From Gemmatimonadales bacterium (lineage in GTDB: Bacteria; Gemmatimonadota; Gemmatimonadetes; Gemmatimonadales; GWC2-71-9), in assembly GCA_030699545.1 (NCBI GenBank), contig JAUYMC010000015.1:1-36120 (forward strand): a DNA stretch of 36,120 nucleotides, read 5' to 3'. Under the pieces are notes generated by a model. That model was not told where the DNA came from. It saw only the letters and a list, made by a program, of their open reading frames with translations, and did not search any database. The translations under genes were made by a program, and so were the position numbers. Shown piece by piece: positions 16,241 through 33,672 of the stretch (positions within the stretch are counted from its first letter, which is position 1; each line of letters begins with the position of its first letter).

Positions 16241-17242
16241 TCACGCGAAGGTGATGCGCCGCCCGTGGGCGGCGGATACGAGGCGGATCTCCTCCATGTA
16301 GCCGGCGATGAGCTGGCCGATGTAGCCACCGTCCCACTTCTCGCGCAGCTCCATGTCGCTGACGACCGGCCGCACGACCGCGACGTTATTCGACTTCCAG
16401 ATGCCCTCGGCGCGGCGCTGCCCGAGGTTCTTGCCGTCGCTCATGTGGCCGATCCACATCTGCGGCCCGTCGGTCTGCGTGTCCCAGATCGACCCGAGGG
16501 TGGTCGGCGAGATGGCCTGCGCGGACGTCTGCGCCATGGCCACGCCGATGTGGCCGAGCTTCAGGCTGGTCCACTTGCGACTCAGCCACGCGAGGACGTC
16601 GTCCTCGGTGAACAGCGAGCGGTCCACGGTCAGCGCCTGCGCCGCGATGATGTCGTCGTGGAAGCGCAGGTACTGCGCCGCGGTGTAGGACAGGATGACG
16701 CCGTTCGGGCGCGACCCCGTCGCCTCCCACACGGCGCGGTAGGCGTTGTCGATGTCGTTGATCGGCGTGCCGCCGCTGTTGGCCCACGAGGGCACGTTGT
16801 CGGCCGTGAAGTTCGCGCCGAAGAACATCTGCGCCGCCCGGTCCTCGCGGTCGAGCATCAGATCGTCCCAGAGCTGCGTGTAGTGCGCCTGCTTCACGTC
16901 CAGCGCCACATCCGAGGTCTTGACGTCGTAGACCTCGTCCAGCGGGAAGTACTCGGCGTAGTGCCGGCAGTCGTAGTCGACCGTCCCGTACTGGACGCCG
17001 CGGGCGGCCGCCGGCTCGGCGCCGCGGGGCCGCTCCAGCGTCGGCTGCCCGGGGCCGCGGCCGTGGAACGAGCCCGGCAGGGTGTAGGCGAACTTGCCGG
17101 TCTTCTCGCCTCCGACGCTGAACGCGGGCAGGACACGGTCCGCGATGAGATCGGTTTCGCGGTTCCGGTACGAGAGCATGAAGCCCTCGACCAGCCTTGC
17201 GACCGGTCGGAGGCCGGACGGCTGCGGATGGATGGCGGGCAT
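16241..17242 (-). CDS. Major capsid protein
   Basis: The product is 333 residues with a strong GAGGAGGT Shine-Dalgarno eight bases before the ATG at 17242, in keeping with high expression. It follows protease/scaffold and decoration genes in the standard order. Features typical of HK97-fold major capsid proteins are present: an N-terminal arm mentioning RNRETDLIADRVLPAFSV, a central part with YFPLDEVYDVKTSDVALDVK, and a C-terminal part with WKSNNVAVVRPVVSDMELRE. It forms the icosahedral shell around scaffold, and its N-terminus may be trimmed by the phage protease. Confidence 0.9.
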   Translation of the reverse strand: MPAIHPQPSGLRPVARLVEGFMLSYRNRETDLIADRVLPAFSVGGEKTGKFAYTLPGSFHGRGPGQPTLERPRGAEPAAARGVQYGTVDYDCRHYAEYFPLDEVYDVKTSDVALDVKQAHYTQLWDDLMLDREDRAAQMFFGANFTADNVPSWANSGGTPINDIDNAYRAVWEATGSRPNGVILSYTAAQYLRFHDDIIAAQALTVDRSLFTEDDVLAWLSRKWTSLKLGHIGVAMAQTSAQAISPTTLGSIWDTQTDGPQMWIGHMSDGKNLGQRRAEGIWKSNNVAVVRPVVSDMELREKWDGGYIGQLIAGYMEEIRLVSAAHGRRITFA

Positions 17243-17260: not shown

Positions 17261-17677
17261 TCAGACGCTGCCGACCGCGTCGGTGTAGAACGGGTTGACG
17301 AAGGTCATGGCGTCGACGCCCGCCGCCGAATCGGCGGTCCCGACGTGGAACCCGAGGACCCAGCACGGCCCCACGGCCGCGACACAGGCGCCATTGGCGT
17401 CGCTCATGACCGCCCCGCCGGGCTGCACCACGCCGCCGTACTCGGCGTACGTGCGACCGTGCTGGACGACGCCGACGGCGCCGCCGACGCGGTCGTCCAT
17501 GTAGGACGCGACGCCGAGCGGGATCTGCGTCTCGGCCGTGGCCCGCTCGACCCGGCCAGCGTTGGCGCCGTTCGGGACCTGCCGGACGATCCGACCCTCC
17601 GTGATCGTCGTGGTCGGGTTCGCCGCGGCTGCGGCGAGGAACCCGTTGCTGAAGTTCGCTCCCGTTCCGATGGTCAT
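17261..17677 (-). CDS. Capsid decoration protein (DUF2190/lambda gpD-like position)
   Basis: The product is 138 residues. The ATG at 17677 overlaps the protease stop as ATGA, and the stop lies 18 bases before the capsid start. The sequence is Ala/Gly/Val-rich with short beta strands (EGRIVRQVPNGANAGRVERA, IPLGVASYMDDRVGGAVGVV), like small trimeric decoration proteins that bind the shell after expansion. A long upstream open frame in the same phase is a shadow of the scaffold gene. Identification rests on size, composition and position between scaffold and major capsid genes. Confidence 0.8.
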   Translation of the reverse strand: MTIGTGANFSNGFLAAAAANPTTTITEGRIVRQVPNGANAGRVERATAETQIPLGVASYMDDRVGGAVGVVQHGRTYAEYGGVVQPGGAVMSDANGACVAAVGPCWVLGFHVGTADSAAGVDAMTFVNPFYTDAVGSV

Positions 17678-18711
17678 CGCCGAACTCCCTTCAGCTTCTT
17701 CTCGGCCTCGCGCTGGAGGGCCAGGAACTCGCCGCTCTGGATCTTGCTCGTGTCGATCTTCCGCTCGGCCGCGAGCCGGAGGACCTCGTCGTACAGGCGG
17801 TCCTCGTAGCTCTTCGGCGCCCCGATGGCACCGCCGCCGCCGCCGTGGCCGTAGACCATGGTGTCCGGCCCCTCGGGGTTGGCGCGCAGCCGCTCGATCT
17901 CCATGTCGAACAGACCGCGGTCGGCCTGCGCCAACTTGAACATGTAGGTTCGACGCAGGCCGGGCGCGCCGTCGTCGCCGGGCGCGCCGGGCGCGTACAG
18001 ACCGGCCGCCTCGTAGTTGTCGAGCTCGCGCTCGAGCTTCAGGTCGGCCTCGCGCCGCTGCGCGGCCGCCATGAACTGCGTGGCGACGTGCTTGTGGGCC
18101 GTCAGCCGGTCGACCTCGGCCTTGAGCCGGATGATCTCCGGGTCCGGGCCCCGCGACGCCTGCACGTGGGCCGGGGCCGCAACCTGCGGCGCGCGGGTGG
18201 GCGCGGGCGTCGGGGTCGGCCGCGGGGCCGCGGGGGTGGGCGCGCGGACTCCGGCGTTCGGCGGCCGGCGCGACATCGTCTCGCGGTCGTCCGCGAGATC
18301 CTGGCTGGCCTTGAGCTGCGCGATCTGCTCGCGCAGCGCCTCGTTCTCCGCCTTCAGCTCCTCGATCGACATCTCGTCGGCCTCCGGTTCCTCGCCGTCC
18401 TCGGCCAGCTCCTCCGACCCGGAGCAGGCCGCGATGCACTTGTCGCACTCGGTCGCGCACGTCTCGCAGGTCGGGTTGTCCATGGTGCGGCAGACGGCCG
18501 CGCACGCCTTGCAGGCCGCGATGCACATCTTCACCGCCGGCGACTCCGGGTCACCGCCAGCGCCGATGAGCGCCTCGCAGGCCAGGATGCACGCCTCGCA
18601 CGCGGCCACGAGCGAGTCGGGGTTGGCGACCGACTCGGCCTCGGCGACGCACGCCTTGCAGGCCGCGATGCAGGACTCGCACGCGGCGATGATCTTCTGG
18701 GGGTCGGGCAT
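17674..18711 (-). CDS. Scaffold protein from internal in-frame start
   Basis: An ATG at 18711 (Met194 of the protease fusion) has a near-perfect Shine-Dalgarno, AGGAGGT, seven bases upstream. It lies exactly at the junction after the protease domain. Initiation here would give a 345-residue protein with the cysteine bundle, both coiled coils and the basic tail, but no protease. Lambda C/Nu3 and other phages make scaffold in this way from within the protease gene. Strong SD plus correct boundary makes this likely, but only protein data can show it. Confidence 0.7.
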   Translation of the reverse strand: MPDPQKIIAACESCIAACKACVAEAESVANPDSLVAACEACILACEALIGAGGDPESPAVKMCIAACKACAAVCRTMDNPTCETCATECDKCIAACSGSEELAEDGEEPEADEMSIEELKAENEALREQIAQLKASQDLADDRETMSRRPPNAGVRAPTPAAPRPTPTPAPTRAPQVAAPAHVQASRGPDPEIIRLKAEVDRLTAHKHVATQFMAAAQRREADLKLERELDNYEAAGLYAPGAPGDDGAPGLRRTYMFKLAQADRGLFDMEIERLRANPEGPDTMVYGHGGGGGAIGAPKSYEDRLYDEVLRLAAERKIDTSKIQSGEFLALQREAEKKLKGVRR

Positions 18712-19290
18712 CGTGGAGACCTCCTCGGTCACGCTCTCGTCGTCCCGCTGCAATCTACAGCAACGAGACAGAAGTACACAATTCATAGAATTCTGCGCCG
18801 GCCTCGGGGTGAGGCTGATCGCGAGGATCTCAGCGCCGCCGATCCGCTCGCCCGTGCCGCGGGCGAACACGTCGCGAATCACCAACTCGGGGCTGATGTA
18901 GAGCGCCGATGACTCGGTCTCGTCGCCCAGGTCAAGCCGGTGATCCTCGACGAGGGACCGGCCGCGATCGGTGTAGACGAGGCGCCCCACGAGCCCCAGC
19001 CGCGGGTCGACGCGCATTGCCTCGACCTGGCCGACCGCGCTCTGGAGCTCGGGCGCGAGCGTGTCGTCGCCCGAGCCGTGGGCCCAGTCGACGGGGATCT
19101 GGCCGCCCTCGGCGCGCCGTCGCTCGAACACCCGGAGCAGGTCGTCGAGCAGATCGGCCGTGACCTCCAGACGCAGCTTCCCGGTGTCCGCGTCGTACAG
19201 CGGGCCGGGCCGGAGCAGATGCACCTCGCGATTATGGGCGGCTGGCGACGCCGGGCCCGCGGCCCGCAGCCGGATGCGCTGCTCGGTCAT
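17674..19290 (-). CDS. Prohead protease (Mu I-like) joined to scaffold with 16-Cys bundle
   Basis: The product is 538 residues with ATG at 19290, SD GGAGG and an ATGA overlap with the portal stop. Residues 1-180 resemble Mu-type prohead proteases: IPVDWAHG (His71, likely catalytic), a GLVGRLVYTDRG core and ALYISPEL (Ser134), ending AISLTPRPAQNSMN. Residues 197-290 hold 16 cysteines in four clusters (204-214, 231-238, 256-267, 275-289) spaced C-x2-C-x3-C, the pattern of DUF326/copper-storage four-helix bundles. Then come an acidic stretch, a coiled coil (307-330), a Pro/Ala linker (342-380), a second coiled coil (384-425), a five-Gly run and a basic C-terminus (EKKLKGVRR), as in scaffolds. The cysteine insert is highly unusual for this family. 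Confidence 0.85.
   Translation of the reverse strand: MTEQRIRLRAAGPASPAAHNREVHLLRPGPLYDADTGKLRLEVTADLLDDLLRVFERRRAEGGQIPVDWAHGSGDDTLAPELQSAVGQVEAMRVDPRLGLVGRLVYTDRGRSLVEDHRLDLGDETESSALYISPELVIRDVFARGTGERIGGAEILAISLTPRPAQNSMNCVLLSRCCRLQRDDESVTEEVSTMPDPQKIIAACESCIAACKACVAEAESVANPDSLVAACEACILACEALIGAGGDPESPAVKMCIAACKACAAVCRTMDNPTCETCATECDKCIAACSGSEELAEDGEEPEADEMSIEELKAENEALREQIAQLKASQDLADDRETMSRRPPNAGVRAPTPAAPRPTPTPAPTRAPQVAAPAHVQASRGPDPEIIRLKAEVDRLTAHKHVATQFMAAAQRREADLKLERELDNYEAAGLYAPGAPGDDGAPGLRRTYMFKLAQADRGLFDMEIERLRANPEGPDTMVYGHGGGGGAIGAPKSYEDRLYDEVLRLAAERKIDTSKIQSGEFLALQREAEKKLKGVRR
18719..18726 (-). promoter_or_regulatory. Internal Shine-Dalgarno for scaffold start
   Basis: The minus strand reads GAGGAGGT here, seven bases before the in-frame ATG at 18711. 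It is at least as strong as the site at the start of the full gene and is well placed for internal initiation. Confidence 0.7.
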
Positions 19291-20666
19291 GCCTGCCTCC
19301 GTCGGGCCTGCGCGAAGAGTTGCGCCGCGGCGCCCGCGGGTGAGCCTCCGGCGCTGCGCTCCGACGGCGTGCGGTAGTGGTCAGGGTCGAGCGGCGAGGC
19401 GCCCATGCCCACGCGGATCATGTCCTCGATCTCGTTCGTCGCCGTGAAGACCCCGCAGCCGATGAGCGCGGGCAGTTCGGCGGCGAGAGCCAGGATGGGC
19501 CCCGGGTCCAACCGGCCGAAGGACAGCCGCGGCCGGAAGCGGGGATCGAGCGTGGGGAAGTTCCAGCGCAGCAACCGAGCGATCGTGCCCTGCCCTGGTC
19601 CATCGTCACCGCCGAGCACGTCTGCGACGTGGTCCAGGCCGGCGACCGCCATCTCCCGGAAACTGCTGATCTGCACCTCGCCCGCAGCTCGCCCGCCGGG
19701 GCCGATCACGCCCTGGCCGAGGAACTCCAAACCGAACCCGAACATGAACTCGCGGTTGCAAGCCGTGATGATCTCGAGCGGCTGCTGAACGTCGAGCACG
19801 CGCTCGCCGAACGTGCCCAGTTCCATGCCCGGCAGGTCCTTGACGTAGCTCGCCTCGCCAGCGACGTACCGCTCGGCGGCCTGCTCGACCTCGGTCGTCA
19901 GCGCGGTGATCTGGTCCGGGGTCAGCTCCGCGTCTTCAAGGACCCGCTTGTCGGTTCGGATCTTCGGCGTGGGCGTCGCCCACCGCTCCAGGCCGATGCC
20001 GACCTGCCGCAGCGCGTGGGCCTTGAGCTTGGACGCGAAGTGCAGGGGCCGGAGCATGCCGACGCCCTCGAAGTTGTCGCCCGTGCGCTGGTGCGTGAAC
20101 AACGCCAGCTTGTGCGCGGGGATGGGTTCGCCGCCCGCGCCGACGGTCGTCCAGTCCTGAGTCACCGACTCCAGCGCGCGGCCGTCGGCGCTCATGTTCC
20201 AATACCAATGCGCGCGCGGCTCCCGGTCCCGGAAGTCGATCCAGACCCGCCCCGCGTCGGGCGTGTAGACCTCCTCGAAGTAGCGGAAGCCCTCCAACTG
20301 GTAGCGGAGGAAGTGCCGGAGCATCCCCTTCCAGCCGCCACGTAGGTAGCCGCGCCCCTCGCGCGACATCCCGAACGCCTCGGACAGGAAGTCGCGGGCG
20401 CGGTGTGCTTCGCCCGGCCAGTCGTCCTCGACCACGAACTGCGCCTCGGCCGTGGTCTGCGTATCGAGCAGCGTGCGGGCGAACGCGGCGATGACCGCGT
20501 CGGTCCGCAGCATCTGGTCGGCGGCCTCCGCCCACGCCTGGCCCTGGAGATCGGTGTTGAGCTCGTACTCGGTGATCCGCCCGCCGTAGATGCGGGTGCC
20601 CGACGTGCCAAGCTCGCGGTACAGCGGTCGGCGGGTCGAGGCGGGCGTCTCGGTGGGGCTGCTCAC
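19287..20666 (-). CDS. Portal protein (Mu gp29-like, DUF935 type)
   Basis: The product is 459 residues from a GTG at 20666; there is no good Shine-Dalgarno. Portal features are present: an N-terminal helical region on subunit contacts (LRTDAVIAAFARTLLDTQTTAE), a wing/clip-like central part (WYWNMSADGRALESVTQDW), KLALFTHQRTGDNFEGVGMLRPLHF, then the helical stem and crown region with FMFGFGLEFLGQGVIGPGGRAAGEV and a C-terminal ALIGCGVFTATNEIEDMIR. This order matches the DUF935 portals of Mu-like phages. Twelve copies would form the DNA channel at one capsid vertex. It lies between terminase and protease genes as expected. Confidence 0.88.
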   Translation of the reverse strand: MSSPTETPASTRRPLYRELGTSGTRIYGGRITEYELNTDLQGQAWAEAADQMLRTDAVIAAFARTLLDTQTTAEAQFVVEDDWPGEAHRARDFLSEAFGMSREGRGYLRGGWKGMLRHFLRYQLEGFRYFEEVYTPDAGRVWIDFRDREPRAHWYWNMSADGRALESVTQDWTTVGAGGEPIPAHKLALFTHQRTGDNFEGVGMLRPLHFASKLKAHALRQVGIGLERWATPTPKIRTDKRVLEDAELTPDQITALTTEVEQAAERYVAGEASYVKDLPGMELGTFGERVLDVQQPLEIITACNREFMFGFGLEFLGQGVIGPGGRAAGEVQISSFREMAVAGLDHVADVLGGDDGPGQGTIARLLRWNFPTLDPRFRPRLSFGRLDPGPILALAAELPALIGCGVFTATNEIEDMIRVGMGASPLDPDHYRTPSERSAGGSPAGAAAQLFAQARRRQA

Positions 20667-20721: not shown

Positions 20722-23121
20722 CTATGGGCCGGAGCGGGACGACGCGGCCCAGCCCCTCCGTGGGGTGGGGCGGGTGGGCGAGACGCCAGGCTTCAGGCCG
20801 GCGCCGCCGAGATGTAGAGACGGAGCATCGGCGGGGCGCTCGCCGTACCAGTGCCAGACGATCGCGTCATAGCGCAGGGCGTCGCAGTTCGAGACGAGCA
20901 CGCCGTTGGCGAAGTACTCGTGCTCGCCGTCAACGGTCAGGTTGTAGACGTCGCCTCGCCCGGCCCGTCGCACGCCCTGCACACGCTCGGGAGCAACGCG
21001 CGGTCCGGGTGTAGCGGTTGACGATGAAGGCGGCACCGCATTCGACGCACCGGCGCTCGACGTCATCAACGCCCGCGTCACGTCGCCACTTGGACTTGCA
21101 TGGGTTGGAGCAGAAGCGCGCCCCGGCGCCGCGCTTGAGGGTCTCGAAGCTGCCGCCGCACCGCTCACAGGTACGTCGTTCAGGTTCACGCCCGGCCCAT
21201 GTTCTGCGCCCGTGCTCCCGGTGCCACTCTCGCCCGGCGTCGCTTCGGTACCACTCCGTAGCGAGCGGCCTGATTCGCTGAAGGTGCGCGGCCCGTTTTG
21301 CGCAGTTCTCCTCGCATGCGTAGCACTCCTCAAGGTGGGCGCGCGTGTGCTCAGCCCCCAACACGCACTCGAGGTTTGTCGCGTCGTTGTTGAGCGGATC
21401 GCCGTCGACGTGGTGGATGACGTGCCCGGCGGGCACGCATCGCCCGTTGTGACGTTCCCAGACGGCAACATGTAGGTATTGAGGGCGACCACCCCACCCG
21501 GCGGATCTGAAGTAGACCCGATCGCTTCGCTGGGTGGCGTCAGGGTATCTCCTGAACGTGACCCCATGAAACTCGACTTCGGCGCTGCTTGGCCTCTCCA
21601 TACCGTAAGTGTATCGTATTGCGTCAAGGACGCAAGCGGAACGCGGCCCCTTTCGGCCGTCCATACCGGGTGGTCCTGCGTCCCAACGAGACGTATCCCC
21701 GACTCCGTCTCGACCTCCCACAGCGCCGCGTCTTCGCCCGTTCGGGCCGCGGCCAGCACATCGCGCAGTCCGGCCCGCGTCCATACGCGGTCGCCCACAC
21801 GAAGCGTCTCGATAGCCGCCGGGCCGTACTCCGCCTCCACGAGCGTCCCGGCCGGGAAGCAGTGATGATCGTGGACGTCGTCCTTGAGCGGCAGATCGCC
21901 CCCCTTCTCTGGGTAGCGATAGCCCTCGATGGCCTTGCGCAGCGTCCGGCCCGCCCGGCGCTCGCCGTCGTCCCACAGCTCGCGCGTGATGACCACGCGG
22001 CGCACGCCGTCCGGGCCGAGGATGCGGCGACGCAGGCGCTCGATGCCGTTCGGGATGTGCCGCTTGATCGGGTCCGTCTCGTAGCGCAGGCGCACGCCGC
22101 AGCCGATGGGCCGCGGCTGGCCGACGAACCGGATGGAGTCGATCCCCGTCTGGTCGTTGACCGCCTTCCCCGCCGGATCCCCGGCGCCAGCCTCGATGCG
22201 CACGCCCCAGCGGTCGGCCTCGGCGTTGATGGCCCGGCACAGTTCCGGGACGAGGCACTCGTCGGGCGCCACCTCGGCAAACACGACGTCGACCTGCTGG
22301 CCGTTGATGTCGGCGCTCTGAATCAGGATGACGGCCGGGGAGCGACGGCCGAAGTCAATCGCCATCCGAACCGGACGCGCGGGGTCCGGCCGCCAGCCGT
22401 CCAGGATGTTGCCGTCCGGCCACGACGACGGCTCCCAGCAGTCAAGGACCTGGCCGACCGGAGGGCGCGGCCGGTTGTTGATCATCGCCTCGTATCGCTC
22501 GGGAGACAGGACCGAGCGGGCGCGCTTGAACCAGTCCGGGGAGAGGTTTGCGGCGTTGACGTGCGACGTCGCGCGCAGGACGAGGCCGCTCGTCCCCGCC
22601 TGCTCCGCCCGCTTCACCCACCACGCGCCAGCGACAGGCAGGCCGGCGACGCAGATGGAGATCGGCGCGCCGCCCGCCGGCGTGCGGATGCGGCCTACCA
22701 GAGCCTCCAGCGCCTCGGGACGCAGCGCCTGGCCCTCGTCGATGAGGCCGAGCGAACCATTGACGCCCTCGAGCGGGTTGTTCTCCTGCGCCCGCGTGCT
22801 GGCCCGGTAGTACATCCGCAGCCAGAGGCGGAAGCCGTTGGGGTGGCGCCAGTAGTACTTGCTGGGGTCGGCGTAGAAGGTCCAGCCGAACCCGCGGAGC
22901 AACTGGTCACAGACGGGCTGGACGACCGACTCCAGCCGGGAGCGGGTGTCGGTGACCCATACCCCGGCGTCGCCCGGCCGCTGATCACCCGCGAGAGCGG
23001 CGATGAGTCCGAGGCCGAACGTCTTGCCGCTGCCCCACCCGGCCTGTACGGCGGTCAGGTAGCGGCCCTGGACGTGGGCCGCGACCATTTGGGCCTGGAG
23101 GGTGTTGAGGTCGAGGTTCAC
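20722..23121 (-). CDS. Terminase large subunit precursor containing an intein
   Basis: The precursor is 799 residues from the ATG at 23121, which overlaps the small-subunit stop. The N-terminal ATPase has Walker A GWGSGKT (28-34) and Walker B LGLIDEG (D128, E129). The nuclease domain begins with MAIDFGRRSP (Asp256). Residues 421-745 are an intein; splicing joins HDHH to CDALRYDAI and leaves a 474-residue terminase, a normal length. The insertion falls in the conserved C-terminal nuclease motif (DALRY), so unspliced protein should be unable to cleave DNA. The mature enzyme pumps DNA through the portal into the capsid and cuts it. It fits Mu gp28-like or other headful-type enzymes; the exact class is not resolved. 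Confidence 0.9.
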   Translation of the reverse strand: MNLDLNTLQAQMVAAHVQGRYLTAVQAGWGSGKTFGLGLIAALAGDQRPGDAGVWVTDTRSRLESVVQPVCDQLLRGFGWTFYADPSKYYWRHPNGFRLWLRMYYRASTRAQENNPLEGVNGSLGLIDEGQALRPEALEALVGRIRTPAGGAPISICVAGLPVAGAWWVKRAEQAGTSGLVLRATSHVNAANLSPDWFKRARSVLSPERYEAMINNRPRPPVGQVLDCWEPSSWPDGNILDGWRPDPARPVRMAIDFGRRSPAVILIQSADINGQQVDVVFAEVAPDECLVPELCRAINAEADRWGVRIEAGAGDPAGKAVNDQTGIDSIRFVGQPRPIGCGVRLRYETDPIKRHIPNGIERLRRRILGPDGVRRVVITRELWDDGERRAGRTLRKAIEGYRYPEKGGDLPLKDDVHDHHCFPAGTLVEAEYGPAAIETLRVGDRVWTRAGLRDVLAAARTGEDAALWEVETESGIRLVGTQDHPVWTAERGRVPLASLTQYDTLTVWRGQAAPKSSFMGSRSGDTLTPPSEAIGSTSDPPGGVVALNTYMLPSGNVTTGDACPPGTSSTTSTAIRSTTTRQTSSACWGLSTRAPTLRSATHARRTAQNGPRTFSESGRSLRSGTEATPGESGTGSTGAEHGPGVNLNDVPVSGAAAASRPSSAAPGRASAPTHASPSGDVTRALMTSSAGASNAVPPSSSTATPGPRVAPERVQGVRRAGRGDVYNLTVDGEHEYFANGVLVSNCDALRYDAIVWHWYGERPADAPSLHLGGAGLKPGVSPTRPTPRRGWAASSRSGP
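20887..21861 (-). mobile_element. Intein (325 codons) in terminase, with nested HNH gene
   Basis: The splice junctions can be read directly: Cys1 (codon 421) in HCFPAGTLVEAEYG and Asn325 (codon 745) in GVLVSN, followed by Cys+1. Block A is CFPAGTLVEAE with LRVGDRVWT after it; block B is GTQDHPVWT (TxxH); block F/G is VYNLTVDGEHEYFANG followed by VLVSN. The residue before Asn is Ser rather than the usual His, which occurs in some active inteins. The splicing parts total about 110 residues, mini-intein size. Between them the reading frame stays open but gives only Ser/Thr/Pro/Gly-rich sequence, because the real coding there is an HNH gene in the -1 frame. Confidence 0.9.
20930..21601 (-). CDS. 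HNH homing endonuclease nested out of frame in the intein
   Basis: The frame gives 223 residues from ATG 21601 to TGA 20930. Residues 42-90 are an HNH_3-type nuclease: YLHVAVWERHNG, VIHHVDGDPLNN (His63/64), ATNLE (Asn76) and HTRAHL. Three Cys groups follow: C93-x2-C96-x3-C100, then C145-x2-C148 with C164-x3-C168, then C185-x2-C188 with C203-x3-C207. The last two read like zinc knuckles common in homing endonucleases (CERCGGSF with FCSNPC; CVECGAAF with CSRAC). The frame is -1 relative to the intein at both ends. Third positions are less GC-rich than in neighbouring genes, suggesting recent arrival. No Shine-Dalgarno is visible before the ATG; the upstream bases are locally AT-rich. How it is translated is unclear. 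Confidence 0.82.
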   Translation of the reverse strand: MERPSSAEVEFHGVTFRRYPDATQRSDRVYFRSAGWGGRPQYLHVAVWERHNGRCVPAGHVIHHVDGDPLNNDATNLECVLGAEHTRAHLEECYACEENCAKRAAHLQRIRPLATEWYRSDAGREWHREHGRRTWAGREPERRTCERCGGSFETLKRGAGARFCSNPCKSKWRRDAGVDDVERRCVECGAAFIVNRYTRTARCSRACAGRATGRARRRLQPDR

Positions 23122-23776: not shown

Positions 23777-24664
23777 GTGGAGAGTATCCCCTACGAGATC
23801 CGAGGCGCCGAGCGGCGCCACGGCACGACGAAGATCGAATGGACCGAGGCCACGTGGAATTGGATGATCGGGTGCACCCCGGTCTCCGCCGGCTGCAAGA
23901 ACTGCTACGCGATGCGCATGGCGTTCCGCTGCGCGGAGATGGGGCAGGAGCCCTACCGCGGGCTCACGACGCCCGGCCCCCGTGGGCCCGTGTGGACCGG
24001 CGTCATCCGCGAGAACAGTGACACCGTCGTCTACCGCCCGCTCGGCTGGCGCGCGCCGCGCCTCATCTTCGTCAACAGCATGTCCGACGTGTTCCACCCG
24101 AACGCGCCGGATTGGCTCCGCGAGATCGGCTTCGACATCATGCTCGAAGCGCCCCAGCACCGCTACCAGGTGCTGACCAAGCGCCCCGACCTCATCGCCC
24201 CATACCTCGCCCGCTCCGGCCGGCGCATCCCCGACTCGGTCTGGCTCGGGGCGACGGTGGAGGACGAGCGGGTCGCGGAGCGCGTCGACCACCTCCGCGC
24301 CGCCCCGGCCCGCGTCCGCTTCCTGTCCGTGGAGCCGATGACCCGCCGCCTCGGCCGGATCGACCTCAGCGGCATCCACTGGGTCATCACCGGGGGCGAG
24401 TCCGGGCCGGGCCGCCGCCGCATCGACCCCGAGTGGGTCCGCGAGGTCCGCGACGTCTGCGCTGAGCAGGGCGTCGCGTTCTTCCACAAGCAGTGGGGGC
24501 ACTGGAGCGACAACCCGCTCCTGGCCCGCTGCCCGGCGGGCGAGCCGCCCGCCGAGTGGATCAAGCGCGTCGACCCCCACGGCAAGGGTGGCGCCATCCT
24601 TGACGGCGTGCTCTGGCGCGAGTTCCCGGAGCGCCTCGACCATCAGGCGGCCCTCGCCGCCTGA
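23777..24664 (+). CDS. Phage Gp37/Gp68-family protein (DUF5131, radical-SAM-like cysteines)
   Basis: The product is 295 residues from a GTG at 23777 with AGGAGG seven bases before it. The signature start of the family is present: KIEWTEATWNWMIGCTPVSAGCKNCYAMR, where Cys33, Cys40 and Cys43 form a C-x6-C-x2-C group like iron-sulfur radical-SAM enzymes (the sequence is split here as KIEWTEATWNWMIGC and TPVSAGCKNCYAMR). Other family landmarks follow: VNSMSDVFHP, YQVLTKRP, WLGATVE, LSVEP and WVITGGESG, then HKQWG. The family is common in phages and actinobacterial elements and its chemistry is unsettled; an RNA- or DNA-modifying role is speculation. It runs on the plus strand, divergent from terminase, and its end overlaps the methyltransferase gene by 22 bases tail to tail. 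Confidence 0.88.
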   Translation: MESIPYEIRGAERRHGTTKIEWTEATWNWMIGCTPVSAGCKNCYAMRMAFRCAEMGQEPYRGLTTPGPRGPVWTGVIRENSDTVVYRPLGWRAPRLIFVNSMSDVFHPNAPDWLREIGFDIMLEAPQHRYQVLTKRPDLIAPYLARSGRRIPDSVWLGATVEDERVAERVDHLRAAPARVRFLSVEPMTRRLGRIDLSGIHWVITGGESGPGRRRIDPEWVREVRDVCAEQGVAFFHKQWGHWSDNPLLARCPAGEPPAEWIKRVDPHGKGGAILDGVLWREFPERLDHQAALAA

Positions 24665-25827
24665 GCACCCGTCTCCGCCTCCCAGCGGGCGACGATAACG
24701 TCGCACCGCTCGGGGTCCAGTTCAATCGCGCAGGCCCGCCGCCCCATCCGCTCCGCAGCGATGATGGTCGTCCCCGTGCCGCAGAAGGGGTCAAACACCA
24801 TCTCCCATTCGGGCGTCCAGTGGGTCAGGTGCTCGATGAACAGATCGACGGGCTTGCCGTGCCGTTGCAACCGACTGAACGGCCGCTCGCCGTCGACAAG
24901 GTGCTCGCCGATACCGATCTCGACGATCGACGGGAAGGTGAGCCGCTTATCATCCGGGCATTTCTTGACGCTTCCGACCTGAACGATCAGGGCGTGCGCG
25001 TGCGCCACCTGAGTCGTCGCGCTTCGGTGATGGGTCGGCCGGACGATCACCCGCTCGAACCGAAACCACTCATCGGGAATCAGGCGAATCACCTTCGCAG
25101 GGCCGAAGACGATGCTTGGGTCCGCGATGTGTTGCGAATAGGCAGCGTCGCCCACCTCGTAGGGCGGATCGACGATGGTTACACCGGGGACATCGCCAGC
25201 GCAGACCCGCGCAATGTCGTCCGCCGATGTGCCATCTCCGCACAGGAGCCGGTGCGCGCCCATGAGCCAGACGTCGCCGCGCTTGGTCACGACGTGCAGG
25301 GGCGGCTCGGGTACATCATCTCCGCCCCCGCTTGTGCCTCCGCCTTCGTCGTCCAGCGCTGCAAGCTCGCCCAGCCGCAACTCCTCGTAGAGCGCCGCGT
25401 CGTCCGCCTCGATCTCGGCGAGGATCGCGTCAAGGTCGTCGGTGAACTCGCCCGCGCTGTGGGGGTTGTTCGCCGCGACGTTGGCCGCCTTCTCCTTCGC
25501 CTCCGGCCACCGAACGCCGCGGATGCGGAAGCGGCCGGACGGCGTATCGAGCCAGCCCCAGCACTCGGGGCCGGACTCCGTGTCGCGCCACTCCTCTTCC
25601 CACTGGACGTCACCGGGCGCGAACGCCTCCAAGATGGGCGTGCGCTGGTGGCCGGTGACGAGGCGCTGCGTCTCGAAGTTGTAGACGATGCCGGAGATGT
25701 CGCCGAACGCGACGACGCTGGCACTGAGGCCGGCGCGCGCCTCGTCGGTGATGCGGCGCGGGTTGCGCTCCCAGCCCTTCAATTTCGTGGGCGGCGTCTC
25801 GGCGGCGTCTCGGCGTCTACGAGTCAT
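24643..25827 (-). CDS. ParB-like domain fused to N6-adenine/N4-cytosine DNA methyltransferase
   Basis: The product is 394 residues from the ATG at 25827; an ATG three codons upstream is equally possible, as GGAGG sits very close. Residues about 18-125 are ParB/Srx-like with RLVTGHQR (54-61 region) and NVAANNPHSAGEF. After an acidic linker comes VWLMGAHRLLCGD, then the methyltransferase with catalytic DPPY (220-223) before the S-adenosylmethionine loop FDPFCGTGTT (345-354) and CAIELDP. This motif order is the beta class. Such fusions are frequent in phages and methylate phage DNA, probably against host restriction. Target sequence cannot be predicted. The 3' end overlaps the opposing DUF5131 gene. 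Confidence 0.88.
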   Translation of the reverse strand: MTRRRRDAAETPPTKLKGWERNPRRITDEARAGLSASVVAFGDISGIVYNFETQRLVTGHQRTPILEAFAPGDVQWEEEWRDTESGPECWGWLDTPSGRFRIRGVRWPEAKEKAANVAANNPHSAGEFTDDLDAILAEIEADDAALYEELRLGELAALDDEGGGTSGGGDDVPEPPLHVVTKRGDVWLMGAHRLLCGDGTSADDIARVCAGDVPGVTIVDPPYEVGDAAYSQHIADPSIVFGPAKVIRLIPDEWFRFERVIVRPTHHRSATTQVAHAHALIVQVGSVKKCPDDKRLTFPSIVEIGIGEHLVDGERPFSRLQRHGKPVDLFIEHLTHWTPEWEMVFDPFCGTGTTIIAAERMGRRACAIELDPERCDVIVARWEAETGAQAARAA

Positions 25828-25867
25828 GGCCTCCATCCTACCATACGCGGCCTTGACGCCGCCCCGC

Positions 25868-26305
25868 CTACGGCTCGCCCACCATGAACGCGAGCGCCGT
25901 CGACTGACGCACGACCTCGGGGTCAAGGGCGCCGACCACGGCGCGCAGCTTGGACAGCGCGTACCGGGCTGCCCTCCAAGCGCCCCGGTCCATCGCGTCC
26001 GCGACGGCCCCGATAGCGGACTCGACGCACCGCGGGTGCTCCGACCTCGGCAGAGGCGGCGCGCCCCCGGCGAGTTCGTCCAGCGTCAGCAGGTGCCGCC
26101 CGTCCACGGCCGCCGTCGTCGGATCGGTGCCCGCCGACGTCCCGTAGCACGCAGCCGCCTCCTCCAGCGGCAGCGACCACAGGCCGGGGCCGACAGCGCG
26201 CCCCGTCTCGACCTCGAAGACGCGGCCGACGCAGGCGAACGGCACCTCGCCCTTGGCCACGCCGAGCACCAGACCGTCCTCACGAACCGTCACACGTATC
26301 CGCAT
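25868..26305 (-). CDS. Hypothetical protein, 145 residues
   Basis: The ATG at 26305 has GAGGAGG eight to nine bases upstream. The N-terminal part is a small beta domain (MRIRVTVREDGLVLGVAKGE, then GRVFEVETGRAVGPGLWSLP). The C-terminal half is helical (VESAIGAVADAMDRGAWRAARYALSKLRAVVGALDPEVV). No catalytic motif or known family is recognised. It is divergent from the zinc-ribbon gene at 26360 and 40 bases upstream of the ParB-methyltransferase gene on the same strand, so both may be in one transcript. Confidence 0.7.
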   Translation of the reverse strand: MRIRVTVREDGLVLGVAKGEVPFACVGRVFEVETGRAVGPGLWSLPLEEAAACYGTSAGTDPTTAAVDGRHLLTLDELAGGAPPLPRSEHPRCVESAIGAVADAMDRGAWRAARYALSKLRAVVGALDPEVVRQSTALAFMVGEP

Positions 26306-27393: not shown

Positions 27394-27481
27394 CGTCGGC
27401 CTCCATCTCCACGTACGGCCCGCAGACCTCGCACGCCGCCACCCCCGCCAGCGAGACGCACATCGCCCACACTTCATACAT
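27380..27481 (-). CDS. Possible micro-protein with Cys pair
   Basis: A 33-residue frame (MYEVWAMCVSLAGVAACEVC, then GPYVEMEADDDPR) fills the space between the PP-loop enzyme and the WDSYG gene. Its ATG at 27481 overlaps the preceding stop, and its end overlaps the next start by 14 bases, in the tight style of this operon. C8, C17 and C20 could bind metal. It is short, so the call is tentative. Confidence 0.4.
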   Translation of the reverse strand: MYEVWAMCVSLAGVAACEVCGPYVEMEADDDPR

Positions 27482-28433
27482 CCCCACCGTCATCCGTCTC
27501 GCACATGCCCCACCGCATACAGCCGTCGGTCGCGGCGTTGTCGAGCAGGTCGAACATCGGCATCTGACGCCCGCCGCGGTCCGTCTGCGCCCACGCAACC
27601 ACGTCGTCGATGCTCATCACGCCGTTGCGGGCCGGGCCCTGGAAGTAGCAGCGCTCGTGCCGTGGAGAGGCGGGGTCGCGCAGTTCGCGCTCCAAGTCCT
27701 CCAACTCCTCGTCGCCGGCGATCTTCTCCGGCCATGGCTTCTCCGCCCGCGCGGTCGATCGCGCTCGCGCCCCGGCCGTCATCTCGATCTCCAGCGCGCG
27801 GATCATGTCGATGCGCTCCGGGTCGTCGCGAGCCACCAGCGCGATCTCCGCCTTGCGCGCGTGGATGCAGGGCCAGCAGCCTACCCGGTTGGCGCCGCGC
27901 AAGTACAACGGGTTCGGCGCGATGCCGTGCCGCCGGTGGATCTCGATGACCTGCTCCTCGGTCCAGCCGATGAGCGGCCGCCAGATCATGCAGTCGATGC
28001 CGCCGCGCTGGTCCGCGGCCCACCGCTCCCACTCGGGCAGTTGCGCCCGCGCGGCCGACTCCAGGCGGCGGATGCCGACGGCGTTGACGACCGTCCCACC
28101 CGTCTCCTCGATCCGCCGGATCGGGTACTCGCGGATGGGCAGCACCTTCAGGCGTTCGGTACACCAGCGGCGCATCCGGCTCGGAAACATCACCTTGCGC
28201 CGGATCCACTCGACCATCCCACCCTCGGGCGAGCGCAGCCACCGGATGGGGCCGATCGCTGGGTCGAGCACGTCGCGGAGGTAAGTGTAGGTGTCGGGGT
28301 GCTCCCAGCCGGTATCGCAGAACACCGCCTCGTAGGCGATACCCTGCTCGCGCAGGTGCAGCGCCATCGCCGTCGAGTCCTTGCCGCCTGAGACGCTGAC
28401 AACAACAAGACGCCCATCAACATGTTCGTTCAC
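27474..28433 (-). CDS. PAPS reductase-family PP-loop enzyme
   Basis: The product is 319 residues from a GTG at 28433 with GGAGG seven bases upstream. The nucleotide-binding PP-loop SGGKDS is at 15-20, followed by VFCDTGWEHPDTYTYL, as in CysH/DndC-type enzymes that adenylate or use activated sulfate. Later cysteines (RRWCTERLK; GCWPCIHARKAE) could bind an iron-sulfur cluster. The C-terminus has CYFQG and CMRWGMC. Phage members are common and their substrate is mostly unknown; sulfur modification of nucleic acid is one idea, but no other Dnd genes are seen here. It follows the RusA-like gene after a 53-base gap. Confidence 0.85.
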   Translation of the reverse strand: MNEHVDGRLVVVSVSGGKDSTAMALHLREQGIAYEAVFCDTGWEHPDTYTYLRDVLDPAIGPIRWLRSPEGGMVEWIRRKVMFPSRMRRWCTERLKVLPIREYPIRRIEETGGTVVNAVGIRRLESAARAQLPEWERWAADQRGGIDCMIWRPLIGWTEEQVIEIHRRHGIAPNPLYLRGANRVGCWPCIHARKAEIALVARDDPERIDMIRALEIEMTAGARARSTARAEKPWPEKIAGDEELEDLERELRDPASPRHERCYFQGPARNGVMSIDDVVAWAQTDRGGRQMPMFDLLDNAATDGCMRWGMCETDDGGDV

Positions 28434-29352: not shown

Positions 29353-29615
29353 GACGCGATCTCCAGTCCAAGGCCCATCTGCACCGCTTCTGCGAGGGGC
29401 CGCGACCTGACGCCAGTGCACGACGGGCACTTCATCCGCAACACCCTCCCGACGACGACCTCAACGAACCCAGCCCCGATCACAGCCTCGGCACACGCGG
29501 CGCTCCGGTCGCTCTCGTTCGGCGGACCCAGCCCGGCGTACCGGCGCCCGCCTTCAGCCCGGCACCAGTCGCAAGCCGCCGCGGTCCAACGTCCTTCATA
29601 GTCGACGATGATCAT
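29349..29615 (-). CDS. Small zinc-binding protein
   Basis: The product is 88 residues; the ATG at 29615 overlaps the methyltransferase stop as ATGA. It contains CDWCRAEGG (C15, C18) and CPSCTG (C63, C66), two CxxC pairs that should bind one or two zinc ions. The part between is FVEVVVGRVLRMK-like beta sequence. The longer open frame upstream is a shadow of the adenine methyltransferase. Function unknown; zinc ribbons next to DNA-modifying genes may aid DNA or protein contact. Confidence 0.7.
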   Translation of the reverse strand: MIIVDYEGRWTAAACDWCRAEGGRRYAGLGPPNESDRSAACAEAVIGAGFVEVVVGRVLRMKCPSCTGVRSRPLAEAVQMGLGLEIAS

Positions 29616-30472
29616 GAGGCAACCTCCAGGGCGAGTTCGATCTGCACGGCGGGGAGTCGGCGCGGCGCCCGGCTCATCGTGAGCCACTCGGGCTTCCCCG
29701 CGTCGCGCAGGCGGCAGGCGGTCCAGCCTTCGAGGGGCAGCGGCTCGGCCTCGGAGACGACCACCAGGTCCGCGACGTCGGCGTGACGCTGCGCGAGATC
29801 TAGCACGTCGGCCCGCGGCAGCAGCTCCGCGTACCGCGGCGCACCCAGGTAGGGCGGGTCGATGTAGACGACCGAGCCCGGCACCGGATCGACGTCGCGG
29901 ACGTCGCCGTGCACGACCTCGACGCGGCTCCAGTCGAGGTGGTCGAGGGCCTCGACGCGGTCGGCCAGCGTCGCGATCCGCTTGACCGCGTGCCGACGTA
30001 CTGGCGACCGGGTGGGCGTCACCTCCCCAACGCTGTCCCACACGCGGCCGCCGCCGTTTGCCTCCCAGCGCGCGCGCTCCGTCGACCACCACAGGGGCAT
30101 GCAGCCGGTCATTCGCGCCTGGAGGCACAGGTACTGCGCCGCGCGCCACGCGGGACCAGACGGCGGCTCGTGCAGCAGCGTCGGCCACACCTCGACGAGG
30201 TCGCCGCGGGCGTGCCAGGCGCGCAGGACCTCCACCGTCTCGCGGCGGATGTCTGCGTCGCGGAGCGTCTTCCACACGTCGCCCCACGGCCCGGCGTCCA
30301 CGAGCACCACGCGGGCCGGATCGCGCACGCCCAGCAGCGACACGAGCACGGAGGCGTCGCGGCGCTTCGATCCCATGAAGCCGGTGAGCGGGCGCGCCCG
30401 GGCGAGGGCCCAGAGCGAGACGCTCGCGGTGCCGCAGCACAACTCGACGAGGGCGGGGCCGGGGGTCGTCAC
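29612..30472 (-). CDS. Dam-like (D12 class) adenine DNA methyltransferase
   Basis: The product is 286 residues from a GTG at 30472 that overlaps the preceding stop as GTGA. The S-adenosylmethionine loop is ELCCGTASVSLWAL (10-23), followed by GFMGSKRRDA, which takes the place of the family's lysine-rich entry segment. Catalytic DPPY lies at 205-208 in VVYIDPPYLGAPRY. This I-then-IV order is the alpha class of N6-adenine enzymes. It would methylate phage DNA, probably to escape restriction. It is one of three methyltransferases of different types in this window. Confidence 0.87.
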   Translation of the reverse strand: MTTPGPALVELCCGTASVSLWALARARPLTGFMGSKRRDASVLVSLLGVRDPARVVLVDAGPWGDVWKTLRDADIRRETVEVLRAWHARGDLVEVWPTLLHEPPSGPAWRAAQYLCLQARMTGCMPLWWSTERARWEANGGGRVWDSVGEVTPTRSPVRRHAVKRIATLADRVEALDHLDWSRVEVVHGDVRDVDPVPGSVVYIDPPYLGAPRYAELLPRADVLDLAQRHADVADLVVVSEAEPLPLEGWTACRLRDAGKPEWLTMSRAPRRLPAVQIELALEVAS

Positions 30473-30768
30473 GTCGCGCTCCGCCTTGCCCGGCCCGCGA
30501 CCACCACCTCGCCCACCATGTCCTCGACCGACCGCGCCGGCGCCCGCCACACAGACAGGCAGGCCCGACCGCGCCCGTCCATCCCGACCACGCAGCGCAG
30601 GCCCGCGGCGCGCATCTCGCCCGCCAGCCGCTCCAGGACCGCGTGCGCCTCCGTCGGCCACGAGACGGCCGGCGCGCCGGGGCGCGGGCGCGCCATGTGG
30701 ACGCCCGCGACGTGCGGCCGCAGGTCGCAGCGCAGGCCGTCGCGCTCGGCGGGGCAGCGGGTGGCCAT
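30469..30768 (-). CDS. Small Cys/His knuckle protein
   Basis: The product is 99 residues; the ATG at 30768 overlaps the preceding stop by one base (TGATG). It starts MATRCPAERDGLRCDLRPHV, then AGVH, a C-x8-C-x4-H-x4-H pattern found at the N-terminus of many short phage and actinobacterial proteins. A helix follows (AHAVLERLAGEMRAAGL), then a beta part with CVVGMDGRGRACLSVWR and a basic end. It probably binds zinc. Function not known. Confidence 0.7.
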   Translation of the reverse strand: MATRCPAERDGLRCDLRPHVAGVHMARPRPGAPAVSWPTEAHAVLERLAGEMRAAGLRCVVGMDGRGRACLSVWRAPARSVEDMVGEVVVAGRARRSAT

Positions 30769-31073
30769 CACGCGACACCCTCCGCTTCCTTCCACTTGTG
30801 GTGCGCCTCCAGGACCTTGGCGATGTGGATCGCCGCGTCCGACGCCTCGCGCTCCGCCCTGACGAGCGCCGACCGCAGGTTCTTGACGTCCCGGGCCGCG
30901 AGGAAGACGTGCGCCTCCGCGTCGCGGACGGCGTAGATCCACGCATCCGCCTCGGTCGCGAAGTAGGTGTTGCTGTTCATCGTCTCCCCGTCGGCGTCCC
31001 GGTTCGGGTAGCCGGGGGTCTCGCACTCGACGGCGCGCGGCATGTCGTCGACCAGCTTCCAGACGGTGGGCAT
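30768..31073 (-). CDS. Hypothetical protein with helical C-terminus
   Basis: The product is 101 residues from the ATG at 31073, one base after the preceding stop; GGAGGA in the end of the upstream gene serves as Shine-Dalgarno. The N-terminal part (MPTVWKLVDDMPRAVECETP) is short and beta-like; the C-terminal two thirds are one or two long amphipathic helices (VRDAEAHVFLAARDVKNLRS, then ALVRAEREASDAAIHIAKVL). No family recognised. Confidence 0.68.
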   Translation of the reverse strand: MPTVWKLVDDMPRAVECETPGYPNRDADGETMNSNTYFATEADAWIYAVRDAEAHVFLAARDVKNLRSALVRAEREASDAAIHIAKVLEAHHKWKEAEGVA

Positions 31074-31959: not shown

Positions 31960-32258
31960 CGTTCGTCCTCCGTCCGTGTTCTTCCCGGGTGCCCGTCGTC
32001 GACGGACTGCTCCATCCCTACCTGCACCCGTGGCATCGGGCGCATCTCGATGGGCCGCGCGATGGCGCGGAAGTTGGCTTCCCGCCCCTCGGGGACGTGG
32101 ACGCGGAGGAAGGCCGACACCCCGCGGCCCATGCGCTTCGACAACCGCATCGAGCTCGTCATCGTCGACTCGGTCTCGATGAGCGCGCGCATGCACCGCT
32201 CCAGGCCCACGCGCGTCGTGTCGATGTCCACGTCCCAGGGCCAGCGCTTGGGGGTCAT
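31956..32258 (-). CDS. Hypothetical protein, 100 residues
   Basis: The ATG at 32258 overlaps the methyltransferase stop as ATGA. The sequence begins MTPKRWPWDVDIDTTRVGLE and has a basic helical centre (TSSMRLSKRMGRGVSAFLRV) followed by an extended tail rich in Arg, Pro and Asp. It is locked between two overlapping neighbours, so it is probably real. No family recognised. Confidence 0.65.
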   Translation of the reverse strand: MTPKRWPWDVDIDTTRVGLERCMRALIETESTMTSSMRLSKRMGRGVSAFLRVHVPEGREANFRAIARPIEMRPMPRVQVGMEQSVDDGHPGRTRTEDER

Positions 32259-33175
32259 GCCGCCTCCTTCAGTCGTCCCAGCAGCCACGCGACGACAGGC
32301 GGGCAGACCGCGTTGCCGAGCAGATGGACGGCATCCTTGTGGCGCGTCGGCAGCCGGTAGCCGGCCGGGAAGCCCATGCCGTCGCGGATCTCATCACGGG
32401 TCAGCATCCGCATCCGGTCGTCGTCGACGAGCGCGAACCGGTCACGGGTAGGCAGCGTTCCGAGCGGCCGGGACAGCGGTCGACCGCCCCGCTCGCTCTT
32501 GTAGTAAGCGACGAGGAAGCGGTCGCCGTGACGTGCCCGCCCCGCACAGACGCGCGCCAACGTCGCAGCCGCCCGGCCCGGCCGCTCGATCGGAGACCAC
32601 CGGCCCGCCTCGAAGTCGACCACGTCAGACGCCGGGCGATGCTCCGCCGCAGGCGCGCCGAGATGCAGCGGCACCGTCGAGCGCGCGCCGACGATGAACA
32701 GGCGGCGCCGATGCTGGGGCACACCCACGTCGGCAGCGTCGATGACGTGCTCGGCCAGCGAGTAGCCCAGCGCGTTCATCGCCATGCGCCACGCGGGGTA
32801 GAGCTTCCAGCCCTGGAACTCGGGCACGTTCTCGACCACGACGAACTGCGGCGCATGGAACTCGGCGCACGACACCACCGCCCACGCCGTCGAGCGGCTG
32901 GAGTCGTGGTGCGCCTGATCCTTGCCCCGAGCCCGGCTGTGGCCTTGGCAGCACGGCGAGGCGAGGAGGATGTCATGCGCCGGCACGCGAGACCAGTCGG
33001 CGAGGTGAAGGTCCTGGCAGGCGTGCTCGACCTCGGGGTGGTTCGCGGCGTGCGTCTCCACCGCGAGCGGCCAGTGGTTCGCCGCCCACAGCACGCGGAC
33101 GCCCGCCGCGGCCGCGCCCTCAGTGAAGCCGCCGGCGCCGGCGAACAGGTCCACGGCAGTCGCCCACGATCTCAC
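32255..33175 (-). CDS. C5-cytosine DNA methyltransferase
   Basis: The product is 306 residues from a GTG at 33175 that overlaps the preceding stop as GTGA. The motifs occur in canonical order: I VDLFAGAGGF (8-17), IV SPCCQGHS (73-80, with the catalytic Cys75 after Pro74), VI VENVPEF (114-120), VIII QHRRRLF (154-160), IX-like RPLGTLPTRDRFAL, X GNAVCPPV (287-294). The stretch between VIII and IX, which recognises the target, is short (about 70 residues). It would methylate one cytosine context in phage DNA. A solitary enzyme without a restriction partner nearby fits protection of phage DNA. Confidence 0.9.
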   Translation of the reverse strand: MRSWATAVDLFAGAGGFTEGAAAAGVRVLWAANHWPLAVETHAANHPEVEHACQDLHLADWSRVPAHDILLASPCCQGHSRARGKDQAHHDSSRSTAWAVVSCAEFHAPQFVVVENVPEFQGWKLYPAWRMAMNALGYSLAEHVIDAADVGVPQHRRRLFIVGARSTVPLHLGAPAAEHRPASDVVDFEAGRWSPIERPGRAAATLARVCAGRARHGDRFLVAYYKSERGGRPLSRPLGTLPTRDRFALVDDDRMRMLTRDEIRDGMGFPAGYRLPTRHKDAVHLLGNAVCPPVVAWLLGRLKEAA

Positions 33176-33672
33176 GCCCCGCCCTCCCGCGCCCGCCGCC
33201 GGCGCTCCGCGCTCACAGCCTCGTCCCACCGCGTCCCGTCCAACACCACGCGCCACCCCGCAGTCGCGAGCAGGTCCGCGGCGAAGACCCGGTGGCACCG
33301 TCCCGCCGCAGCCTCCGTCTGCGAGCAGGCACAGATGAGCGTAGCGCCGTCCTGCACGGGGCCGAGGTCCCTCGGATCGGCCCACAACTGCGCCATCAGC
33401 GCGCCGGGGCTCAGGTCCGCAACCACGCCTACGACGTAGCGGCGGCGGTACTCGCCGAAGTCGATGACGCCGAGGCGGATGGCGTCCAGGTCCTCGACGC
33501 GGGGGACGAGAGCGGGCACGAGGCCGTCCCCGCCCTCCCCGTAGTGGTGGCGCGGGCGGACCATGATGCACCAGACCTCGCCCGGGCCGACGCAGCGCTT
33601 GGACCGCTCCGAACCGCGGGCGGCGGCCCGCACTGTTGCTGCGTTGGTGAGGTAGACGGTCGGCGCGCTCAC
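33172..33672 (-). CDS. Hypothetical protein with C-x-C and CHR motif
   Basis: The product is 166 residues; the GTG at 33672 overlaps the preceding stop as GTGA. After an N-terminal beta part (VYLTNAATVRAAARG, then EVWCIMVRPRHHYGEG) comes a C-terminal half with TLICACSQTEAAAGRCHRVF and ADLLATAGWRVVLDG. The C-x-C followed by CHR and a Rossmann-like end resembles DUF488-type proteins. The resemblance is loose, and no function is assigned. It precedes the cytosine methyltransferase in the operon. Confidence 0.68.
   Translation of the reverse strand: MSAPTVYLTNAATVRAAARGSERSKRCVGPGEVWCIMVRPRHHYGEGGDGLVPALVPRVEDLDAIRLGVIDFGEYRRRYVVGVVADLSPGALMAQLWADPRDLGPVQDGATLICACSQTEAAAGRCHRVFAADLLATAGWRVVLDGTRWDEAVSAERRRRAREGGA

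Follow-up and report, generated by a model that had tools for sequence, protein, structure and literature searches.

The locus

The stretch of DNA analysed here, called the window below, is 36,120 nucleotides long (positions 1 to 36,120 of contig JAUYMC010000015.1, assembly GCA_030699545.1, from a Gemmatimonadales bacterium) and belongs to a draft genome in 402 contigs, the one genome in which the gene under study was found. It carries a phage head module in the order terminase, portal, protease/scaffold gene, small open reading frame (ORF), major capsid protein. Our subject is the protease/scaffold gene. Its product begins with a part that resembles the head-maturation proteases of Mu-type phages and continues, from a proposed in-frame internal start, with a bundle of 16 cysteines that is like the copper storage proteins (Csps) in predicted fold and in cysteine layout. 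A sequence-only reading of the window had described a copper-storage-like (DUF326) cysteine bundle inside a capsid scaffold and had placed it at 17883-18711. That span corresponds to residues 194-470 and takes in far more than the cysteine block itself, which is confined to residues 203-292 (18415-18684).

The cysteine block

All 16 cysteines of the block lie within residues 204-289, and the remaining 448 residues of the 538-residue protein hold three. This compares with 107 cysteines in 10041 residues (1.07%) for the 27 other window ORFs listed, in which the densest 100 residues have 6; at that rate, finding at least 16 cysteines in 90 residues has a binomial P of 2.8e-15. The residue positions confirm that the cysteines form four clusters (Table 1). 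The C-x2-C-x3-C spacing that had been ascribed to these clusters is only partly right. There is a heptad-like spacing, with 8 cysteine triplets spaced 3-4 or 4-3 against a shuffle mean of 0.58 (eight was reached by 0 of 20000 shuffles), while cluster 3 opens C-x3-C-x2-C, so the proposed spacing is not universal. Six CXXXC pairs can also be read from the residue positions.

GC content at codon position 3 (GC3) reaches 0.98 within the block; elsewhere in the gene it is 0.90-0.96, except for the linker of residues 171-193 (0.70). Given this pattern, and because the portal and capsid genes share the strand of the protease/scaffold gene, we take the block to be read in its true coding frame. The linker with its odd composition is perhaps an insertion scar or a regulatory stretch.

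Predicted fold of the bundle

Structure prediction agrees with the earlier suggestion of a four-helix bundle carrying its cysteines on one face of each helix. AlphaFold2, run on residues 185-304 as a single sequence without relatives, gives four helices with a mean predicted local distance difference test (pLDDT) score of 85 and a predicted template modelling (pTM) score of 0.75. The same four helices recur in a model of the 345-residue product expected from the internal start, and long helices after the bundle are predicted at low confidence only. Each of the 16 cysteines falls in a predicted helix, on one face per helix (P 0.025, 0.035, 0.004 and 0.001), and the helical wheel suggests that the side chains face the bundle core.

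The nearest known structures are Csp1 and Csp3. In a Foldseek search of the PDB they fill ranks 1-9 at a probability of 1.00 (best E-value 6.6e-3, to Csp1), and with VIA-align BsCsp3 comes top at Z 16.1, the Csp3 structures ranging from 14.4 to 16.1. Csp/DUF326 structures, alone or within a construct, occupy rows 1-25 of the VIA-align result, and the next fold is talin at Z 11.3. Six of these rows (6, 9, 12, 20, 22 and 25) hold PA2107, fusion constructs of it or Nmul_A1745, and both PA2107 and Nmul_A1745 are also matched by a profile built from eight Csps. We consider the Csp-like fold of the bundle to be well supported as a predicted model. Of the outcomes named beforehand as refuting the sequence-only reading, neither a model lacking a four-helix bundle nor an absence of likeness to DUF326 members came up.

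Proposed internal start of the scaffold

We think it most likely that the bundle forms the scaffold's N-terminal domain, because its internal ATG and AGGAGG match the internal-start pattern of Mu-type phages. In the Mu record, Z is annotated as starting inside I, and an extract of PMC4378225 describes, for Pseudomonas Mu-like phages, an internal scaffold start whose Shine-Dalgarno sequence lies eight bases ahead of it. Sites of the form AGGAGG-N5-10-ATG occur six times in the window against 0.95 expected, and 0 of 100 shuffles reach six. The sole other such site in the head-gene block precedes the capsid gene, and its presence both there and at Met194 would be expected if the two products were abundant. 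That the block should follow the protease and stand at the start of an internally initiated scaffold was part of the sequence-only reading, and with an AGGAGG 8 nucleotides upstream of the Met194 ATG this placement is well supported by the sequence.

The protease part

The protein matches phrog_328 (head maturation protease) over residues 53-297 with an E-value of 1.4e-4. The Pfam family Mu-like_Pro (PF10123) scores it at 12.4 bits, under the cut-off of 25.2, where a typed Mu-like I protein from the same order scores 101.6 bits. When the protein is aligned with two Mu-like I proteins from that order, the D-x-x-H-G, S and L-T-x-R-P-x4-M columns are retained, at 24% identity to the first. The Mu-type label is thus a statement of likeness, which draws on the PHROGs match, these columns, the gene order and the internal start.

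We inspected 11 Mu-type protease/scaffold proteins, taken from seven of the 144 matching phage records, Mu, two genomes of the same order and one viral contig. Each has 0-5 cysteines, and 0 of the 11 have a CxxC motif or a cysteine block. Three further candidates were set aside. BigNuz is the best portal match, and its protease is without useful similarity to the protein here; for a Bacteroidales genome with a portal match (L161), the listed frames include no head genes; and a phrog_328 match (L160) is a long coiled-coil frame.

Relationship to copper storage proteins

A profile was built from 28 of 30 DUF326 loci, two having been dropped by a motif filter. It scores the protein at 24.9 bits, where the best of 1000 full shuffles scores 6.6 bits, and 10 of 1000 shuffles with the cysteines held fixed equal or exceed the score of the protein. 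Alignment to Csp with hhalign gives a probability of 95.5 over 67 columns. The protein as a whole finds its best database match in a 109-residue Csp, at 32% across residues 193-292, which is encoded in a genome belonging to the same order. An NCBIfam scan gave nothing useful for the protein, and a PDB sequence search with the segment alone returned a sole match, a protein named C8-71, at an E-value of 0.51.

According to extracts of PMC5171941, Csps carry 13-19 cysteines which come from the helices, face the core and include CXXXC pairs. They are described in parts of PMC5171941 and PMC7558416 as folded before copper binding, tetrameric, and holding Cu(I) by thiolates.

Occurrence

Among 201 genomes of the order, the sole match to the protein besides the window is one free Csp. 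The 200 phylum-level genomes give three places in two other genomes: one is again that free Csp, and stop codons interrupt the other two. Of the 201 order-level genomes, 30 have free Csps (PF03860, E ≤ 0.01), and the genome of the window is not among these 30. Searches with the portal, capsid and terminase for phage relatives gave weak matches or none.

Csp-like sequences were also sought in phages and viruses. No PHROGs family matches four typed Csps at E ≤ 0.1. A tblastn search of the phage records with two typed Csps matches five records each (seven distinct, three shared), of which one with full annotation has host-like genes and others are very short or unannotated. Two DNA patterns for Csp helices were run over the viral contigs. 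For the first (at least 120 stretches), the Csp profile finds one frame at an E-value of 0.085 and none better; for the second (at least 120 stretches, 228 loci) the pattern lies in 126 frames, 0 of which reach E ≤ 1e-3. Many of these viral frames resemble reverse readings of alanine-rich coils or repeats, TGC being GCA reversed, and such reversed repeats are a trap for cysteine-motif searches in viral DNA.

Csp-like bundles are not absent from viruses, as two predicted structures indicate: A0A8D9FR86 from an uncultured marine phage (116 residues; Foldseek E-value 2.9e-4, template modelling (TM) score 0.76 by query length) and A0A5J6VLP3 from a Megaviridae sample (193 residues; E-value 6.6e-4, TM score 0.70 by query length). 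Literature searches on copper storage proteins (judged by title and abstract) or DUF326 together with phage, and on copper-binding, cysteine-rich scaffolding proteins of phages, showed no Csp-like domain in a phage scaffold; among the "DUF326" matches with phage are papers on DUF3263, DUF3268 or DUF3269 and one on gonococcal antigens.

Other features of the window

The coordinates of the gene, its parts and its neighbours are collected in Table 1. The small ORF sits where Pseudomonas Mu-like phages have a proposed decoration gene, as given in part of PMC4378225, and a Pfam scan of it settles neither a scaffold nor a decoration label. A promoter and terminator scan of 17600-19400 found none.

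Table 1. Features of the protease/scaffold gene and of the neighbouring head genes
Feature	Position	Strand	Basis
Protease/scaffold gene P0001, 538 residues	17674..19290	-	ORF; phrog_328 match
Protease part, residues 1-170	18781..19290	-	Alignment with two Mu-like I proteins
Linker, residues 171-193; low GC3; Cys 171, 177, 178	18712..18780	-	Composition
Shine-Dalgarno-like AGGAGG, 8 nucleotides before internal ATG	18720..18725	-	Sequence
In-frame internal ATG (Met194), proposed scaffold start; product would be 345 residues	18709..18711	-	Start inferred
Csp-like cysteine bundle, residues 194-292; 16 Cys, 0 His	18415..18711	-	Sequence and predicted fold
Helix 1 (predicted), residues 197-218; Cys 204, 207, 211, 214	18637..18702	-	
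Helix 2 (predicted), residues 225-243; Cys 231, 234, 238	18562..18618	-	
Helix 3 (predicted), residues 251-269; Cys 256, 260, 263, 267	18484..18540	-	
Helix 4 (predicted), residues 273-290; Cys 275, 278, 282, 285, 289	18421..18474	-	
31-nucleotide repeat copy in helix 1	18642..18672	-	Sequence
31-nucleotide repeat copy in helix 3	18495..18525	-	94% identical to helix 1 copy; 25 nucleotides exact
Scaffold part, residues 293-538, with an acidic linker, long helices (predicted), a Pro-rich stretch and helices at the C terminus	17677..18414	-	Low-confidence model
Portal protein	19287..20666	-	Portal_Mu E 2e-21; phrog_113 E 5.9e-22
Small ORF in decoration-gene place; PHROG label "head scaffolding protein"	17261..17677	-	phrog_673 E 3.1e-10
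Major capsid protein; AGGAGG before start	16241..17242	-	phrog_1005 E 1.4e-20
Terminase, intein inside	20722..23121	-	

The intein in the terminase (20887-21861, minus strand) occupies terminase residues 421-745 and matches Hint_2 with an E-value of 2.2e-6. In the same region an ORF in another frame of the same strand, from an ATG at 21601 to 20930, has an HNH endonuclease domain (PF13392, E-value 2.7e-15), and the terminase/intein frame is open throughout it. Elsewhere on the 36-kb contig there are three DNA methyltransferase-like ORFs (24643-25926, 29612-30946 and 32255-33820, minus strand) and a PAPS-reductase-like ORF at 27474-28433.

Interpretation

The explanation that we favour, with a probability of about 0.6, is that the gene encodes a Mu-type protease with an internally started scaffold headed by a Csp-fold bundle of 16 cysteines, the bundle being mainly a compact scaffold head that is able to take Cu(I). 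The cysteine block, its frame, the internal start site and the gene order are read from the DNA, and the fold is predicted; what we infer is that translation begins at the internal start, that the bundle binds Cu(I) and self-associates, and that it is lost at maturation. The gene would encode a head-maturation protease of the Mu type, its 3' part coding for the scaffold. Starting at 18711 would give a separate scaffold protein, so that the bundle would head this protein and also sit within the protease fusion. The reducing cytosol would keep the thiols reduced, and the bundle could then take up Cu(I). As a compact and probably self-associating scaffold head it may gather scaffold and protease inside the prohead, to be lost once the protease clears the scaffold. 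By analogy with Csps we expect a stable domain at the head of the scaffold that can bind Cu(I) and perhaps self-associates.

Several results weigh against this explanation. The bundle had been expected to belong to DUF326, and this expectation did not hold at the level of the Pfam profile: PF03860 leaves the whole protein unmatched at E ≤ 1 and the segment unmatched at E ≤ 10, where two typed Csps run as a control are detected by the same library. There are likewise 0 matches to PF03860 in the window's own genome. Residues 194-292 contain no histidine, so counterparts of the mouth histidines of Csp3 are absent; in MtCsp3 these are His104, His108 and His110, three conserved residues at the alpha3-loop-alpha4 mouth (from an extract of PMC5171941). 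In a stricter test, which used 27 Csps with L025 left out and shuffles that keep the cysteine positions plus the helix and loop composition, 59 of 2000 shuffles score as high as the protein (20 of 2000 without composition correction), and the protein scores 24.7 bits where the 27 Csps, each left out in turn, score 75.8-143.1. Because 59 of 2000 strict shuffles match the score, descent of the domain from a Csp, though likely, is weakly supported by the sequence. The Foldseek E-values against the PDB are modest, none being 1e-3 or lower, and outside the bundle the model of the 345-residue product is of low confidence (mean pLDDT 66, pTM 0.34). Additionally, PHROGs gives the name "head scaffolding protein" (phrog_673) to the neighbouring small ORF at 17261-17677. 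Cu(I) binding and self-association of the bundle are argued from its resemblance to Csps. Finally, a look for the same insert in related phages had been proposed as a check. We found no relative of the fusion in viral contigs (searched with the whole protein and with the segment alone), genome contigs, phages or plasmids, and the more distant Mu-type proteins, all 11 of them, are without the insert.

The strongest alternative keeps the fold and gives up the metal. The bundle could be a structural or oligomerising module whose cysteines form the core or crosslinks, with no metal bound in the cell. Copper is probably too scarce to fill very many scaffold copies, by a rough estimate from copy numbers, and general library scans turned up no other copper genes among the window proteins scanned. 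However, 16 buried cysteines make a costly core, their arrangement on one helix face with a spacing of 3-4 is like that of the metal-binding Csps, and none of the Mu-type relatives inspected has such a core. We regard this as a serious possibility that falls somewhat short of our preference. Within the favoured explanation the same estimate, in which scaffold copies would outnumber the copper of the cell, leads us to prefer, by a small margin, a bundle that is structural and has its copper capacity as a by-product over one whose role depends on copper.

A second alternative concerns origin. The bundle could have grown within the phage gene by duplication of a cysteine-containing helical hairpin, and would then not be a Csp descendant. 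Helix 1 and helix 3 share 25 identical nucleotides, 147 nucleotides apart, where the longest internal repeat within the 28 Csp genes is 8-18 nucleotides. This points, at the sequence level, to a recent duplication or conversion within the domain, and leaves room for a convergent origin, as do the marginal similarity to Csps outside the cysteines and the unmatched DUF326 profile. Against it stand the hhalign probability and the fit to the Csp fold, which is 5 Z units over other bundles; local conversion inside a captured Csp could also yield a recent repeat. On balance we think convergence unlikely, if still worth keeping in mind.

Metal-dependent assembly, copper protection and a redox switch were among the ideas of the sequence-only reading. 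It is conceivable that the bundle is a switch, in which Cu(I) or Zn loading or disulfides control how the scaffold assembles, when the protease is released or how the scaffold leaves. The position of the block, exactly at the junction of protease and scaffold and in both predicted products, would suit this, and three further cysteines stand in the linker at 171, 177 and 178. No relative of the fusion was found, however, and the thiols of apo-Csp3 are reported, in an extract of PMC5171941, to be slow to oxidise. We therefore hold such a switch to be improbable. An equally long shot is the bolder version of the favoured explanation, in which a tailed phage would have recruited a thiol bundle of the copper-storage type for its capsid scaffold, proheads would be built around a Cu(I)-binding lattice, metal loading or a thiol switch would couple assembly or protease release to the cell's metal and redox state, and scaffold breakdown would free the metal.

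That the block is an artefact, either read antisense or out of frame or created when assembly wrongly joined a host Csp gene to a phage gene, could be suspected from the draft state of the genome, the odd linker and the 126 viral frames with the same cysteine pattern, which looked out-of-frame or antisense and none of which was Csp-like, but the single unbroken 538-residue frame, the GC3 of the block, the protease similarity upstream in the same frame, the strand shared with the portal and capsid genes and the in-frame Shine-Dalgarno start on the block itself make this very improbable.

The usual picture of a phage scaffold is a plain helical protein which exits or is digested. A metal-storage-type fold heading a scaffold would add a new type of component to scaffolds; it would raise the question of capsid assembly tied to metal or redox state, and would take the Csp-like fold beyond free storage proteins into a structural role within a fusion. 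The combination of a Csp-like bundle and a phage scaffold looks unusual.

Comparison with known systems

With the Mu I/Z proteins and those of DMS3 and JBD5, the gene described here shares a protease followed by an in-frame scaffold, an internal start (here a proposed one) and its position ahead of the capsid gene. The proteins of Mu, DMS3 and JBD5 have 0-2 cysteines and no CxxC, whereas the protein here has 19 cysteines and what is predicted to be a cysteine bundle at the scaffold N terminus. The small phage protein A0A8D9FR86 is by its length a separate protein, unlike the fused domain here, and both it and A0A5J6VLP3 were compared by predicted structure only.

Among the Csps, Csp1 of Methylosinus trichosporium (5FJD/5FJE) is the best Foldseek match to the phage domain. 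It has a core of 13 cysteines according to an extract of PMC5171941, and is described in part of PMC7558416 as Tat-exported and free-standing, whereas the phage domain lies inside a cytosolic phage protein and lacks histidine altogether. Csp3 (BsCsp3 5FIG/6WKT, MtCsp3 5ARM/5ARN, Streptomyces Ccsp 6EI0) shares with the predicted phage domain a four-helix bundle of about 100 residues, cysteines with CXXXC spacing on the inner face and the lack of an export signal. Csp3 is a free protein with 18-19 cysteines and three mouth histidines, while the phage domain is fused, with 16 cysteines and 0 histidines.
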